From Sphingosinicella microcystinivorans (GTDB lineage Bacteria > Pseudomonadota > Alphaproteobacteria > Sphingomonadales > Sphingomonadaceae), in contig NZ_RBWX01000007.1 in assembly GCF_003634215.1 (NCBI RefSeq), positions 112,001 through 176,000 of the forward strand: a stretch of DNA of 64,000 bases, written 5' to 3'. Positions 6,841 through 36,336 of the stretch are shown here, piece by piece (position 1 is the first letter of the stretch; the number at the start of each line of letters is the position of its first letter). The position numbers were made by a program, and so were the translations under genes. Below the pieces are notes generated by a model. It did not search any database, had not been told where the DNA came from, and saw only the letters and a list, made by a program, of their open reading frames with translations.

Positions 6841-7659
6841 TCAGGCAGCCTTGCGGCGGCGGCGCGTGGCGCCGAGACCGACGAGGCCGAGACCGAAGAG
6901 CGCAAGCGCAGCCGGTTCCGGAACTTCGCGGCCTTCGATCGACAGCGCGAACTGTGCGAAGGTCGTCGCGGCTTCGGCCGTCAGGAAGCCGAAGCAGCCC
7001 GCAGCCACACCGGCCGAAGCGCAAGCTTCGGCGGAGAGGAAGCCGAGCGTCGGAGCCGAGTCCGGATCTTCGAAGATGAACAGCGAGTAGTTGACGCCGT
7101 CATAAGAGAAGTCGAACTGACCGAAGTCGAAGTCGAGCACGAAGATGTCGGCGCAGCCTGCGCTGTTGATGCCGACGCCCACAGCGCCACCGTCGGCGCA
7201 GACGCCGCCCGAACCCGCGTTCGGCGTCTCGATGAACGAAATGTTGAACGTGCGCTCGAGCGGCGAGGCGAGCGGGTCACCGGCCGGATCGAACGGGGTC
7301 AGCGCGATCGTGATCGAGAGGTCGGTGCTGAGCAGCGACTTGGTGCCCGACGGAAGCGTCCGGTTCTCGTGATAGTACTGATCAGCGAGGTTCCAGGTGC
7401 CGTTGGTGTCGAGCAGACCCGAGGTCGGGGTGTCGGTGACGCCGATGGCGCTCTTGACGCTCGAGGGGCCCCACTGAATGCGCGTGGAGCTGACCTGCTG
7501 CGTGCCCGTGCCCGAAGCTTCGAAAACCGGGTTGGAGAACGCCGAGGTCACTTCGTATGACCAGGTGTTGACGAAAGCCGCCTGGGCAGCGGTGGACGTT
7601 CCAACCGCGGCGACAAGCGCCATCGCGGGCAGAACCTTGTTGAGAACCTTGTTGCGCAT
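6841..7659 (-). CDS. PEP-CTERM sorting-domain protein (THxN-like)
   Basis: A 272-residue exported protein. Residues 1-27 are a signal peptide (ending STAAQA). The last 26 residues hold the full PEP-CTERM tail: VPEPAALALFGLGLVGLG followed by the basic run ATRRRRKAA. Such proteins are cut and placed at the cell surface or in exopolysaccharide by an exosortase. The middle is Gly/Ser/Asp-rich, with four cysteines (two pairs) and the segments YYHENRTL and FNISFIETPN, which resemble the THxN subfamily of PEP-CTERM proteins; that subfamily call is tentative. No exosortase gene lies in this window. The gene is monocistronic with its own terminator. The function is probably structural and is not known. 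Confidence 0.85.
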   Translation of the reverse strand: MRNKVLNKVLPAMALVAAVGTSTAAQAAFVNTWSYEVTSAFSNPVFEASGTGTQQVSSTRIQWGPSSVKSAIGVTDTPTSGLLDTNGTWNLADQYYHENRTLPSGTKSLLSTDLSITIALTPFDPAGDPLASPLERTFNISFIETPNAGSGGVCADGGAVGVGINSAGCADIFVLDFDFGQFDFSYDGVNYSLFIFEDPDSAPTLGFLSAEACASAGVAAGCFGFLTAEAATTFAQFALSIEGREVPEPAALALFGLGLVGLGATRRRRKAA

Positions 7660-7828
7660 TGAACGCCTCCTGAGAACTGATAGCCGAAATCAGGGAAGCA
7701 AGTCGCGTGCCATTTGCGGCAGAGGTGAAGAAAGGGTTAATTTTCCGAGGTTAACGGGCTGTCCGTTTCGGCGCTGAAAAATGCGCAGCGAAAATTGTAA
7801 AGAATTCCGACGACGCTTCAGGCGATGC

Positions 7829-31257: not shown

Positions 31258-31469
31258 TGCGGGCGAAGACTTGGGCGAGCCGCGATGCCGCGTCAAGCCG
31301 AAGGCGCGCGCGGGTCTTGAAAGCCGGCGTGCGGGCGCTCAACTAAAGCCAGCGGGCCGGGCCCCTCTGGCGGTCGTCATTTTTGACGATCTGCGATGTC
31401 GGACCGCATCGAGCCATCTCGATGCCGGTCGCCTTCGATTGGCATTCAGACAAGAGGAGAGACCAGGAA

Positions 31470-31760
31470 ATGACGAACCCCGCTGCCGGAATGCCATGCC
31501 CCGTGTGCAAGGTGGCGCTCGTGATGAGCGAGCGTCAGGGTGTAGAGATCGATTATTGCCCGCAGTGCCGCGGTGTCTGGCTGGATCGCGGCGAGCTGGA
31601 CAAGATTCTGGAGAGAAGCGCCCGGGACGCTGCACCATCTGAGGCGCCGCGCGTTTCCGTGCCCCGGCGGGACGATGATCGCTATGCGCGCGATCACAAA
31701 CCCTATGGCTACGGCTATGGGAAAAAGCGGAAATCGTTCCTGGAAGAGCTGTTCGACTGA
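31470..31760 (+). CDS. Zinc-ribbon protein (TFIIB-type zinc finger family)
   Basis: A 96-residue protein. Two CxxC pairs (CPVC and CPQC) with the phrase RGVWLDRGELDKIL define the small zf-TFIIB family (PF13453). The C-terminus is basic and Tyr/Gly-rich (YGYGYGKKRKSF). It stands alone and converges on the psp-associated gene cluster. No function is known to me. Confidence 0.82.
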   Translation: MTNPAAGMPCPVCKVALVMSERQGVEIDYCPQCRGVWLDRGELDKILERSARDAAPSEAPRVSVPRRDDDRYARDHKPYGYGYGKKRKSFLEELFD

Positions 31761-31774
31761 AGATCCGCGAGCGT

Positions 31775-31801
31775 CGCCGGCGTCAGTAGTCGACGCCGGC
31801 G
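31775..31801. terminator. Hairpin at the end of the psp-associated operon
   Basis: CGCCGGCGTC (31775-31784) and GACGCCGGCG (31792-31801) are exact complements with a 7-nt loop. The hairpin contains the stop codon of the last small gene. There is no T run, so it may act as a 3' mRNA stabiliser rather than a terminator. Confidence 0.4.
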
Positions 31802-32013
31802 GCGATCGCTTCGAGCTTGCGCACGCGTTCCTTGAGGTCGGCGACGTCGATCCGGCCCGATACGGGCGGACCTGCCGCGACGCGGCCGTTTCCGAGCTCC
31901 GCGCGCTTCAGTTCGAGCCAACCCTTCCAGCACCACGCGGCGATGCCGGCAATCATGCCGAGCCCCAATATGGCCCCGGCGGTAATGACGATCAGACTTT
32001 CAAATCCGGGCAT
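31783..32013 (-). CDS. Small membrane/coiled-coil protein, psp-associated (5th of array)
   Basis: A 76-residue protein with one N-terminal helix (FESLIVITAGAILGLGMIAG) and a short polar tail with a coiled segment VADLKERVRKLEAIAAGVDY. The C-terminal motif shared by its upstream neighbours is here eroded to LEAIAAG. GGGAG lies 8 nt before ATG 32013. It is the last member of the array of small PspB-like proteins downstream of pspC. Expected location is the inner membrane; function unknown. Confidence 0.75.
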   Translation of the reverse strand: MPGFESLIVITAGAILGLGMIAGIAAWCWKGWLELKRAELGNGRVAAGPPVSGRIDVADLKERVRKLEAIAAGVDY

Positions 32014-32029
32014 GTCCGTCACTCCCTTC

Positions 32030-32263
32030 TTACCGATCGCGCCCAAGCGCGTCGATTTCGTCAGCCAGAAGGCGGCTGCGGTCGGTCGCCAGCCGTTCCA
32101 GCGTTGCAATGCGGTCTTTCAGGTCGCCGATCTCGCCGCGCAGGCGGTCGTTTTCAAGTTCGGCGTCAGGCCGTCCGCGGCCTTTCTGCTTCATGTACTG
32201 AAGCGCGATCTTGCCGAACACCACGATGGCGACGATCAGGACTACCATTTCGAACGGATGCAT
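32030..32263 (-). CDS. Small membrane/coiled-coil protein, psp-associated (4th of array)
   Basis: A 77-residue protein, the size of PspB. The helix EMVVLIVAIVVFGKIAL at 5-22 is followed by a basic linker and a coiled coil (ENDRLRGEIGDLKDRI), ending in LERLATDRSRLLADEIDALG. This end motif is nearly identical to those of its three upstream neighbours and of PspC. ATG 32263 has AAGGGA upstream. It is probably an inner-membrane partner of PspA or PspC; that is inference. Confidence 0.8.
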   Translation of the reverse strand: MHPFEMVVLIVAIVVFGKIALQYMKQKGRGRPDAELENDRLRGEIGDLKDRIATLERLATDRSRLLADEIDALGRDR

Positions 32264-32294
32264 CGCTTGTCCCTTTCCCGTGTCTTGCCGCGTC

Positions 32295-32621
32295 TCAGTT
32301 CTTCGGGCCGCGAAGCTGTTCGATCTCGTTTTCCAGCCTGAACGAGCTGTCGGTCACAATGCGTTCCACGTTGGCGAGCCTGTCCTTCACGCTGCCGAGT
32401 TCGGCGCGAAGCTGAACATTTTCGTTGGTCAGAAGTGTAATGCGCTCCTGCGCCTCGGTCGAAACCTTGGGATGCACCGCCATGCCCCAGGCGTTTTCCA
32501 GCGGATAGCCGTGCTTGATGCGCATGAAGGTCGTGAACACCCAGCCCGCGATGCCGAGCGCACCGAGCGCGAAGCCGCCGCCGACAATCCAGGGGAGATA
32601 GGGGTAGATGAAGATGTCCAT
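32295..32621 (-). CDS. Small membrane/coiled-coil protein, psp-associated (3rd of array)
   Basis: A 108-residue protein. A helix at about 11-31 (VGGGFALGALGIAGWVFTTF) is followed by the phrase KHGYPLENAWG, a coiled coil (ENVQLRAELGSVKDRLAN) and the end motif VERIVTDSSFRLENEIEQLR. The KHGYPLEN phrase recurs as RHGYPIEN in the 1st array member, so these two are the closest pair. Function unknown. Confidence 0.8.
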   Translation of the reverse strand: MDIFIYPYLPWIVGGGFALGALGIAGWVFTTFMRIKHGYPLENAWGMAVHPKVSTEAQERITLLTNENVQLRAELGSVKDRLANVERIVTDSSFRLENEIEQLRGPKN

Positions 32622-32638
32622 GATCCAGTCCCTTTTGT

Positions 32639-32926
32639 TCAGGCCCGCAGGGCCTCTATTTCATCGGCGAGCCGCGTAGAGCGGTCGATCGCGAGGCGTT
32701 CCAGTGTGGCCAGCCGTTCGCGCACATCCTCCATCTGGGTGATCAGCGCGGCGTTCTCGGCGGCAAGGCGACGGCTTTCGAGTTCACGTTCGAAGCTGTA
32801 GACCGGTGTTTCGGCGGAAGCTTCGGCGGGCTCGCTTGCCGCGCCGCGTCTGCTGCACACCTGCACCAGCCACATGCCGGCGGCTCCGGCGAGGAGACCG
32901 ATCAGAAATCCGACTTCGGCAGGCAT
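32639..32926 (-). CDS. Small membrane/coiled-coil protein, psp-associated (2nd of array)
   Basis: A 95-residue protein with an N-terminal membrane helix (VGFLIGLLAGAAGMWLVQV), a Ser/Ala/Glu-rich linker, and a coiled coil ending LERLAIDRSTRLADEIEALR. The last 20 residues match the PspC C-terminus closely in RLADEI. Spacing to its neighbours is 17 and 27 bp. The ribosome site GGGGGAAT is about 11 nt from the ATG. Function unknown; probably acts in the same envelope complex. Confidence 0.78.
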   Translation of the reverse strand: MPAEVGFLIGLLAGAAGMWLVQVCSRRGAASEPAEASAETPVYSFERELESRRLAAENAALITQMEDVRERLATLERLAIDRSTRLADEIEALRA

Positions 32927-32953
32927 GGCTCACATTCCCCCTGTTTGGCCGTG

Positions 32954-33253
32954 CTAACGAAGGCCGTCGATCTCGTCGGAGAGCCTGCGCGACCTGTCCG
33001 TCGCGATGCGCTCCAGAACCGTGATCCGCTCTTCGAGCCTGGCGATCTGGCCCTTCATTTCCGCATTCTCGTTCGCCAGCAGTTCGGTCTTACGGCTCGC
33101 GGCGAGGCTCTCACCCGCGGTCTTGTTGGTCGTGCCCCAGAACTCGTTTTCGATCGGATAGCCGTGGCGGGCGCGGATCCAGGTACTGATCAGCCAGCCG
33201 CCCGTGCTGATGGCGATGATGGCGAGCACGAAGAACGGTGAACCCCAATCCAT
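32954..33253 (-). CDS. Small membrane/coiled-coil protein, psp-associated (1st of array)
   Basis: A 99-residue protein. A helix at 6-25 (PFFVLAIIAISTGGWLIST) is followed by RARHGYPIENEFWG, a coiled coil (ENAEMKGQIARLEERI) and the end motif LERIATDRSRRLSDEIDGLR. AAGGGAAG lies 7 nt before ATG 33253. It follows pspC by 23 bp. It resembles PspB in plan (helix then coiled tail) but is longer and has its own conserved end. Confidence 0.82.
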   Translation of the reverse strand: MDWGSPFFVLAIIAISTGGWLISTWIRARHGYPIENEFWGTTNKTAGESLAASRKTELLANENAEMKGQIARLEERITVLERIATDRSRRLSDEIDGLR

Positions 33254-33276
33254 GGCGATGCTTCCCTTCGCTTGGG

Positions 33277-33654
33277 CTAGCGCAGGCTGTCGATCTCGTC
33301 GGCAAGCCGTGTGTTCTGCGACGTGTAGTGCCGCTCGACGTGGGCAAGGCGGCGGTCGATGTCGCGGAAGCTCGCATGAACGTCGCGGATCGAGCGGCTC
33401 GGCGCCACGCGGACCTTCTGCCAGAACTTCTGGTCGACGACGCTTTCGCCGTAAAATTCCGTGGGCTTGTCAGAGGCCATCAGGCCGATCACCAGATAGG
33501 CCACCGGCAGGATGCCTGCACCGAGGATGGTGCCGACCACTGCACCTACGCGCCACCACAGCACATCGATACCCGTGAAGTCCGCAAGGCCGGCACACAC
33601 GCCCAGCCACTTCTTTTCGCGCTTATTGAGGTAGAATTTCGTGCGGCTGGACAT
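33277..33654 (-). CDS. pspC: PspC-domain protein with coiled C-terminal tail
   Basis: A 125-residue protein. The N-terminal PspC domain (FYLNKREKKWLGVCAGLADF, then WWRVGAVVGTILGAGILPVA) holds the membrane helix. A cytoplasmic tail of about 60 residues ends HVERHYTSQNTRLADEIDSL. In enteric bacteria PspC is the inner-membrane sensor that sequesters PspA. The tail here matches the ends of the downstream small proteins. GGAGG lies 5 nt before ATG 33654. Confidence 0.9.
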   Translation of the reverse strand: MSSRTKFYLNKREKKWLGVCAGLADFTGIDVLWWRVGAVVGTILGAGILPVAYLVIGLMASDKPTEFYGESVVDQKFWQKVRVAPSRSIRDVHASFRDIDRRLAHVERHYTSQNTRLADEIDSLR

Positions 33655-34921: not shown

Positions 34922-35098
34922 TCAGTAAACGATCGGAGCGCTCGTCGAAACCGGGATGATCTGGACCTGGGCAAGCTTGGCCGGGGTTTCGGCGCGGGCG
35001 GGACCCGCCGCGGCGAAGAGGAAGACCGAGCTGACCGCGACCGCACCGACGGTGCAGAAGAGGGTCCGGAACATGTTGCTGTTGGCCTGCGTAAGCAT
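34922..35098 (-). CDS. Small secreted peptide, first gene of psp operon
   Basis: A 58-residue open frame with an excellent ribosome site (AGGAGG 5 nt before ATG 35098). A signal peptide runs MFRTLFCTVGAVAVSSVFLF to about AGPARA (residue 36). The mature part is about 22 residues (ETPAKLAQVQIIPVSTSAPI to VY). It lies about 40 nt below the predicted sigma-54 start, so it is the first cistron of the psp operon, before pspA. It may report on export or act as a small periplasmic factor; function is unknown. It is under 60 residues and easily missed. Confidence 0.7.
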   Translation of the reverse strand: MLTQANSNMFRTLFCTVGAVAVSSVFLFAAAGPARAETPAKLAQVQIIPVSTSAPIVY

Positions 35099-35148: not shown

Positions 35149-35164
35149 AGCAAGGGTCGTGCCA
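35149..35164 (-). promoter_or_regulatory. Sigma-54 (-24/-12) promoter of psp operon
   Basis: The minus strand reads TGGCACG-ACCC-TTGCT, matching the consensus TGGCACG-N4-TTGCW completely. It faces the 58-residue peptide gene and pspA, with divergent pspF, a sigma-54 activator, on the other side. This is the expected control of a psp operon. Confidence 0.9.
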
Positions 35165-35178: not shown

Positions 35179-35286
35179 CTGTGATTTGTGTATTTTCAAT
35201 ATGTTATACGTATTCTGCTTGGAAGTTGGCGAAATTTCCGTGTGTGCATATTGCAAAAAATTGGGATTTTTTGCTAAATATTGGCA

Positions 35287-36336
35287 ATGAAGGACTCGGC
35301 GACTCTCGTTGGCCAATCGACCGAACTGCTCGATGCGATTGAGCGGGCGAGCCTTGCCGCCGCGCTGAACCGTTCTGTGCTCGTCATCGGCGAGCGCGGC
35401 ACCGGCAAGGAGATGGTCGCGGAGCGCCTGCACCGCCTCAGTCCGCGCTGGGAGGAGCCGTTCATCGCAATGAACTGCGCGGCGATGTCAGAGAACCTCA
35501 TCGATGCCGAGCTCTTCGGCTATGAGGCAGGGGCCTTTACCGGCGCGACCTCGGCGCGGCGCGGACGGTTTGAAGAGGCAGACGGCGGCACCTTGTTCCT
35601 CGACGAGGTGGGGACGCTCTCCTCCGCCGCGCAGGAGCGCCTGTTGCGCGTCGTCGAATATGGGGAGCTGACCCGGCTCGGTGCGAACCGGCCGCTCACC
35701 GTCGACGTCCGTATCGTCGGCGCCACCAACGAAGATTTGCCTGCGCTTGTCGAAAAGGGGCGCTTTCGGGCCGACCTGCTCGATCGCCTCTCCTTCGAAG
35801 TCATCACCCTGCCGCCGCTGCGTGCGCGCTCCGACGATATCATGGAACTGGCGAACCATTTTGCGCGGCGCATGTCCGTCGAGCTGGGCTGGCCGGACTT
35901 CCCCGGCTTCAGCCGCGAGGTGCGCCAGCAGCTGCGCGCCTACGCATGGCCGGGCAACGTCCGCGAGCTGAAGAACGTCGTGGAGCGCGCGCTCTACAGG
36001 TGGGGTGATCCCGCGACGCCCGTTGATGCCCTCCAGTTCGATCCGTTCGACTCCCCGTGGCGGCCGAAGCGGTCGATCGTGATGGCGGGGGTGGAGGCGG
36101 CAAAGGCGCCGCCGGCTGCACCGGCAGTTGCGGCTATCGCGGCGGCTGAGGAGCGCGCTGCGGTCAGCGACCTGCGCGCTGCCGTCGCGGAATACGAGCG
36201 GGACATTCTCGTCCGCACGCTCGAAAGCTGCCGCTATAACCAGCGTGCCGCCGCGGAGGCGCTCGCGGTCACTTACGATCAGCTCAGGCACTGCCTGCGC
36301 CGTCACGGCCTGCACCGCGCCGCTGCGGCATCCTGA
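35287..36336 (+). CDS. pspF: Sigma-54 activator PspF
   Basis: A 349-residue enhancer-binding protein without a receiver domain, the PspF plan. AAA+ region: Walker A-like GERGTGKE, the sigma-54 contact loop EAGAFTGATSARRGRFEEAD, Walker B LFLDEVGTL, and the sensor R region. A C-terminal Fis-type helix-turn-helix (QRAAAEALAVTYDQLRHCLR) follows an Ala/Pro linker. It activates the divergent psp promoter. Start: ATG 35287, or TTG 35281. A possible own promoter is TTGGCG (35226) - 17 bp - TATTGC (35249). Confidence 0.93.
   Translation: MKDSATLVGQSTELLDAIERASLAAALNRSVLVIGERGTGKEMVAERLHRLSPRWEEPFIAMNCAAMSENLIDAELFGYEAGAFTGATSARRGRFEEADGGTLFLDEVGTLSSAAQERLLRVVEYGELTRLGANRPLTVDVRIVGATNEDLPALVEKGRFRADLLDRLSFEVITLPPLRARSDDIMELANHFARRMSVELGWPDFPGFSREVRQQLRAYAWPGNVRELKNVVERALYRWGDPATPVDALQFDPFDSPWRPKRSIVMAGVEAAKAPPAAPAVAAIAAAEERAAVSDLRAAVAEYERDILVRTLESCRYNQRAAAEALAVTYDQLRHCLRRHGLHRAAAAS

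Follow-up and report, generated by a model that had tools for sequence, protein, structure and literature searches.

In this study, we analysed a 64,000-nucleotide (64-kb) stretch of the Sphingosinicella microcystinivorans genome (contig NZ_RBWX01000007.1, positions 112,001 to 176,000 of the forward strand), here called the window, with a focus on an array of small membrane-protein genes at the end of its psp operon. To our knowledge, nearly everything that is known of Psp signalling comes from E. coli and Yersinia, in which a single PspB and a single PspC pass the signal of membrane damage on to PspA. The window holds pspA, pspB, pspC and a divergent pspF, and a sigma-54 promoter match lies before the operon (Table 1). 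Directly behind pspC, as a preliminary description of this DNA had reported, stand five adjacent minus-strand genes of 76-108 residues (99, 95, 108, 77 and 76). A second, tail-less PspC-domain gene of 63 residues in the same operon is an addition to that description.

Table 1. The psp operon, its array and adjacent features (positions count from the first letter of the window; aa, amino acids)
Feature	Position	Strand	Properties
Array gene 1, class K1, 99 aa	32954..33253	-	One membrane helix with a GYP-IEN motif next to it, then a coiled helix and a PspC-type tail
Array gene 2, class K7, 95 aa	32639..32926	-	PspC-type tail; class restricted to the window's genus (its 4 loci)
Array gene 3, class K2, 108 aa	32295..32621	-	PspC-type tail; TIGR02978 positions 86-121, E 9.3e-5
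Array gene 4, class K4, 77 aa	32030..32263	-	PspC-type tail; best-matching class for most outside-family proteins
Array gene 5, class K5, 76 aa	31783..32013	-	Own conserved ending ADLKERVRKLEAIAAGVDY, without EI-x-x-L tail
pspC, 125 aa	33277..33654	-	Source of the shared tail; directly 5' of the array
Second short PspC-domain gene, 63 aa	33680..33871	-	Tail-less
pspB, 96 aa	33868..34158	-	Pfam PspB E 6e-25; sole PspB match in the genome
pspA, 223 aa	34162..34833	-	PspA_IM30 E 4.8e-38
58-aa gene heading the psp operon	34922..35098	-	Signal-like N-terminus
Sigma-54 promoter match upstream of the psp operon	35149..35164	-	TGGCACGACCCTTGCT, 11/11 positions
pspF, divergent activator	35281..36336	+	TIGR02974 E 2e-144
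Zinc-ribbon gene	31383-31760		Convergent to array gene 5

Four of the array proteins close with an ending that they share with the PspC of the same operon, and on this point the preliminary description is borne out. The tail columns R, E-R, L, E-I and L are invariant in array genes 1-4 and PspC, and the match is above background because a search of the window's own genome with a profile of these four genes (E <=10) returned only those four and the PspC tail. Judged by sequence, the shared ending of the array proteins is the PspC ending. Using a profile of 51 array proteins (class K5 excluded), hhalign aligned the array tail with the PspC-tail profile over 35 columns (94%, E 1.5e-7) and the array profile with PspB over 23 columns (90%, E 1.8e-6) and with K5 (86%, E 5.6e-6); the PspC tail against PspB reached 38%, and K5 against PspB 2%. 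When 18950 NCBIfam models were run against the same 51 proteins (E <=0.01), PspC (22 proteins) and PspB (13) led, and the next non-psp model matched 5.

The label 'PspB-like' used in the preliminary description is weak for the window's five. Some likeness appears with Pfam PF06667 (E 0.052) and NCBIfam TIGR02976 (E 0.013), but neither PspB cut-off is reached (best of the five 14.0 bits vs 25.6, and 15.8 bits vs 51.7), and array gene 3 matches the final 36 positions of the PspC model TIGR02978. The PspC cut-off is not reached either (best of the five 22.3 bits vs 104), the match being confined to C-terminal positions, and at the limits used neither Pfam nor NCBIfam listed PspD or PspG for any of the window's five or of the 51 array proteins. 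Seven proteins from outside the family or away from psp loci were also scanned; their best NCBIfam match was PspC or PspB in six, always under the cut-off, and in some of the seven the PspC match also spans PspC's last membrane helix. Because of the longer PspC-tail alignment, the NCBIfam counts and this match over the last helix, 'PspC without its first half' is no worse a description of the array proteins than 'PspB-like'.

PspB and PspC cytoplasmic domains reportedly silence the response, to go by the title of a 2016 paper, and one alternative is that the array proteins are diverged PspB copies which bind the cytoplasmic tail of PspC and tune its switching, not binding PspA. The 23-column PspB alignment, the 13 NCBIfam PspB matches (best 2.1e-8), a size and predicted topology as in PspB, and the 'PspB duplicates' noted for some psp operons in the accessible part of PMC11237479 fit this idea. 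We nevertheless consider it unlikely: the shared ending extends into an EI-x-x-L segment that is present in PspC and absent from PspB, the window's five all score below the PspB cut-offs, second PspB-model matches in the family survey (scores in G125 and G466) stay under the cut-off, and K5 is without PspB similarity.

The topology of the array proteins is PspB-like by prediction, with an N-terminal membrane helix and a cytoplasmic coil (hydropathy, charge and AlphaFold2). Of 356 proteins, 349 have more lysine and arginine after the membrane helix than before it, so that the C-terminus is predicted to be cytoplasmic; 12 of the 356 proved afterwards to be PspC. AlphaFold2 models array gene 1 as a helix at 6-30, a loop and a helix at 45-98, with a mean predicted local distance difference test score (pLDDT) of 78.5 and a predicted template modelling score (pTM) of 0.38. 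The tail of the window's PspC forms helices at 85-113 and 115-124 in the highest-scoring of five models, the other four having a pLDDT of 59-64. Searched against solved structures, the array profile found only chance coiled-coil matches, with a best E of 0.011.

To place the array in its family, 81 psp loci (80 fetched and the window) from 77 genera of Sphingomonadaceae were compared. The fetched loci were drawn from the PspB or array-profile matches listed; they represent at most 80 of 189 PspB-bearing family genomes and are a non-random sample. Array genes were collected by iterated profile search and class models, and the removal of 12 PspC fragments from 356 proteins left 344. All 81 loci have pspF, pspA, pspB and pspC (phmmer with the window's four proteins) and a PspC with a long C-terminal tail, and in 80 of them an array follows pspC, with a median of four genes per locus (0 genes in 1 locus, 1 in 4, 2 in 5, 3 in 8, 4 in 29, 5 in 19, 6 in 10 and 7 in 5). 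The tail pattern is carried by 263 of 271 non-K5 proteins, a circular figure because the proteins were found with tail-containing profiles. The tail-less short PspC form is present in six of the 81 loci, four of them from the window's genus. In Sphingomonas parapaucimobilis, the matched gene and the three downstream of it are annotated 'hypothetical protein' by NCBI.

The array genes fall into classes found, by locus, in 76 (K4), 73 (K5), 59 (K2), 49 (K3), 43 (K1), 25 (K6), 4 (K7, restricted to the window's genus) and 3 (K8) cases. Their order is nearly fixed: K4 precedes K5 in 69/69 loci, K1 precedes K4 in 38/38, K2 precedes K4 in 55/56, K1 precedes K2 in 32/34 and K3 precedes K1 in 16/22, and the window reads K1, K7, K2, K4, K5. 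Intergenic gaps have a median of 16.5 nucleotides (nt) and are <=60 nt in 254 of 264 cases, and 87 are start/stop overlaps of -1 or -4, the usual mark of translational coupling. In Sphingosinicella the array genes are, as codon comparisons indicate, under purifying selection, the ratio of nonsynonymous to synonymous substitution rates (dN/dS) being 0.18-0.34 for K1, 0.06-0.10 for K2, 0.15-0.16 for K4, 0.05-0.14 for K5 and 0.07-0.14 for K7. As a separate observation, several array proteins per genome in loci L144, L133, L105, L108 and others share an extra C-terminal GVPL-KE-A-like stretch, whose KE and end overlap the ribosome site and start of the next gene.

A FastTree of sampled members recovered K1 (support 0.80), K2 (0.998), K5 (1.0), K7 (1.0) and K8 (0.846) as exact clades; 14 of 15 K4 members stood together, K3 had one K6 inside and K6 was not one clade. 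The deep branching of this tree is not trusted because the alignment has 81 columns. The same paralogue classes recur throughout the family, so the duplication is not a recent one, and a recent local origin was rejected. The proposal in the preliminary description that PspB/PspC tails had been duplicated into a set stands in part: the genes are psp operon members, carry the PspC ending and form a conserved paralogue set, but they did not arise recently and their resemblance is longer to PspC. The graded or multi-part sensor on PspA envisaged in that description is a hypothesis. One could also imagine that the proteins take no part in regulation and assemble with one another, through their coils, into a scaffold at the membrane that supports PspA rods or the envelope. 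Such a scaffold would suit the co-expression of several coiled proteins, their near-fixed order and start/stop overlaps, and the long confident helix of the AlphaFold2 model. Against it stand the likeness of the tail to the regulatory PspC tail and the confinement of the counted proteins to PspB-bearing genomes. We rate a scaffold as distinctly unlikely.

The fifth gene had been described as ending in a worn version of the shared tail, and here the description has to be corrected. The gene belongs to a separate conserved class, K5, whose end is nearly invariant across the family (strict end pattern in 64 of 73) and which is the last gene in 73 of the 73 loci having it. Its own conserved ending, its low dN/dS (0.05-0.14 in three genus-level pairs) and its always-last position rule out a worn copy. 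An order-wide search placed 131 of 132 K5-matching genomes in Sphingomonadaceae, the remaining match being weak (E 6.6e-5). Among the best 80 of 578 K5 matches, the nearest named relatives are from Sphingosinicella (97, 95 and 89% identity), and the 80 are labelled as Sphingomonadales or as unclassified alphaproteobacterial or proteobacterial metagenome-assembled genomes. In five family genomes (L217-L221), a second pspA-pspC-K5 cluster lies away from the main psp operon, and in two of these (G358 and G334) the main array is without K5. Because K5 follows the second pspA-pspC pair, off-locus K5 in these genomes still travels with pspA and pspC; the idea that K5 occurs apart from psp genes was dismissed when the five cases were examined.

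Genome co-occurrence was counted in family, phylum and order samples, with counts and Fisher P values uncorrected for relatedness. In the family sample of 199 genomes, PspB (by PF06667) was found in 189 and the array (by profile A3) in 188: both in 186, PspB only in 3 (G298, G330, G356), array only in 2 (G322, G346) and neither in 8 (P 1.4e-10). Single weak A3 matches are no proof of an array because A3 can also match the PspC tail. A finer search found one array gene each in two of the three PspB-only genomes (L104, K4; L156, K5). The phylum sample comprised 397 genomes, 21 of Sphingomonadaceae and 376 outside, searched at an array-profile threshold of E <=1e-4. The 21 family genomes gave 91 array-profile matches, of which 90, as read from tables, fall within the psp locus. 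The sole off-locus match is a 137-residue, soluble-looking zinc-ribbon protein of G360 (L317:2704-3114, plus strand) with an array-type tail, no psp neighbours and a weak DUF6487 match (E 1.7e-4, slightly under the cut-off).

Outside the family, 38 of 376 genomes gave an array-profile match, 36 of them with PspB. Five of the 38 were left out: G743 and G746, where the match overlaps PspB; G794, where it lies just behind PspB and was assumed from its position to be PspC; and G158 and G503, both without PspB, where the matches fall in open reading frames of 623 and 1185 residues. The remaining 33 genomes, in which G621 was retained despite a weak match (E 1.4e-5), have a separate small protein, and 33/33 have PspB, against 67 of 376 outside genomes with PspB above the cut-off (P 5e-29). 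Sequence was read for 13 of the 33 (L203-L215), and for the other 20 the distance to PspB was taken from coordinates; around those 13 proteins, no pspA, pspC or pspF was found within about 3 kb. In the order sample of 58 genomes outside Sphingomonadaceae, 41 match, all 41 with PspB, and 0 of 5 PspB-less genomes match. The co-occurrence with psp genes that the preliminary description had put forward as a check is positive in all three samples (186/199 with both, 33/33 and 41/41). That description had also held that a tail widespread with no psp link would speak against its idea: outside the family the proteins do usually lie off psp loci, but the counted small ones are found only in PspB-bearing genomes.

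In the sister family f144, six of the nine matching genomes (L309-L314) carry a single gene that directly follows pspB and two pspC genes. One of these loci has a pspA split over three reading frames (L313:1471-2199, plus strand), either broken or an assembly error. K4 is the best-matching class for 17 of 25 outside proteins and for 6/6 of the f144 operon ones. Sequence comparison suggests an evolutionary series from an orphan to one operon gene to an array, in which K4 may be the oldest class. Similar orphans are plasmid-borne in Vibrio, Pseudoalteromonas and Photobacterium.

The array is classed as an accessory psp set because of its operon membership, shared tail, conservation, order, packing, selection and co-occurrence with PspB, and on balance we think it probable that it encodes accessory Psp membrane proteins whose PspC-type tails dock PspA, or PspB/PspC. 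In the accessible parts of two studies, the C-terminal cytoplasmic domain of PspC is described as binding PspA when the system is on and as setting PspF free (PMC5596341), and a PspC leucine zipper is needed for the interaction with PspA, with two PspC topologies argued (PMC3068692). Each array protein has, by prediction, an N-terminal membrane helix, a cytoplasmic C-terminus and a coiled helix, and all classes but K5 close with a short helical PspC-type tail. These tails could dock PspA or the cytoplasmic domains of PspB/PspC, multiplying the membrane docking points found once on PspC in E. coli and Yersinia. Since the genes sit behind a sigma-54/PspF-type promoter, the array proteins would be expected to rise on induction, pull PspA to the membrane and off PspF, and help retain PspA there as effector. 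The N-terminal halves, which vary from class to class, may each respond to a different state of the membrane. For K5, our best guess is an assembly or capping subunit, because it is without the last tail helix, closes every array having K5 and accompanies a second pspA-pspC pair. A more far-reaching version, which we hold to be doubtful, is a combinatorial sensor, in which class-specific membrane helices and juxtamembrane sensing would feed through the shared PspC-type tail into one PspA/PspF output, K5 would be the closing subunit and the orphans the ancestral one-gene form of an unnamed Psp family.

Several points weigh against accessory docking proteins of this kind. The hhalign P-values concern coiled sequences, whose composition may inflate the scores, and Pfam is unspecific on the 51 array proteins (PspB 4, ZapB 4 and others). 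The likeness to the PspB profile is also significant, and because of it the docking partner could be PspC instead of PspA. The accessible part of PMC3068692 argues that in E. coli the C-terminus of PspC is partly periplasmic. Concerted change of tails within genomes, in ungapped 20-residue tails, is clear in only 2 of 12 class pairs (K1-K3 and PspC-K2, 0/2000 permutations each), so that tail co-adaptation is not general evidence and was dropped as such. Within the family, locus L134 has psp genes without an array, and G322 (L216) has pspA, a tail-less PspC and two array genes but no PspB. Outside it, most array-like proteins are not in psp operons, and an array-like protein is not obligatory with PspB because 34 of the 67 PspB-bearing genomes outside the family lack one; in f144 no more than 9 of 22 genomes match. 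Upstream of 14 orphans tested, there was no convincing sigma-54 promoter, the best matches (L204, L214 and L215) having 9/11 positions and being equalled by 12, 3 and 5 of 300 shuffles (uncorrected, 14 tests), and PspF control of orphans through such promoters is unsupported by these upstream regions.

A short, charged and repetitive tail, the unspecific Pfam matches and the soluble zinc-ribbon protein with a similar tail could even be taken to mean coincidence, with unrelated small stress membrane proteins collected behind psp and their tail likeness convergent. This seems highly improbable to us, as PspC and PspB are the top two among 18950 models, matches in the window's genome are limited to the psp locus, and the proteins co-occur with PspB.

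Two further observations concern other genes. The 58-residue gene that leads the operon is matched by phmmer in 7 of the 81 loci; at the corresponding place, S. parapaucimobilis carries a 147-nt gene annotated as hypothetical. Elsewhere in the window, a gene for a 272-residue PEP-CTERM protein (6841-7712, minus strand; PF07589 E 1.9e-6) begins immediately after TGGCACGCGACTTGCT (7712-7697), a perfect sigma-54 promoter match; apart from the one before the psp operon, the 64 kb hold no further perfect match.

Sphingomonadaceae, a large and much-used family, keep several extra proteins with the PspC output tail across the 77 genera sampled, and where the bacteria studied so far have a single docking point, sphingomonads may have many. 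If the array proteins dock PspA, then PspA recruitment and stress discrimination become addressable by single-gene deletion or swap in one small operon. In other proteobacteria, the orphans are candidates for Psp proteins encoded away from psp operons. No publication on the sphingomonad psp array was found in a literature search that mostly missed subscription papers, and the accessible part of PMC9239133 does not mention such an array. The array is a variant of the known Psp system and overlaps with the reported 'PspB duplicates'.

Among known systems, the C-terminal region of PspC (TIGR02978) shares with the array proteins the last ~35 residues and their R / E-R / T-D or T-S / L / E-I / L pattern, and in two outside proteins the match reaches over PspC's last membrane helix. 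Unlike PspC, the array proteins are without the N-terminal PspC domain, have one predicted membrane helix and score far under 104 bits. With PspB (PF06667/TIGR02976), they share size, one N-terminal membrane helix, a cytoplasmic coil and the L-E-R-I segment; they differ in that the window's five are under the cut-offs, that an EI-x-x-L end is added, and that conserved PspB residues (e.g. H-Y and K after the helix) are missing from the array consensus. A true PspB duplicate, unlike the sphingomonad array, is seen outside the window's class in G651 (C1:1117368-1117807), where two adjacent full PspB genes are both well above the cut-off. The nearest published parallels come from PMC11237479, whose accessible part reports 'PspB duplicates' in some psp operons and a 'PspC fused to a divergent C-terminal PspB', and one of its examples, AOL22920.1, may be one of these arrays. 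Those operons are like the present one in having extra PspB-like genes in the psp operon and a PspB-like segment closing PspC; they are given one sentence each, and the accessible part describes neither an array nor classes with a terminal one, and neither a family range nor orphans.

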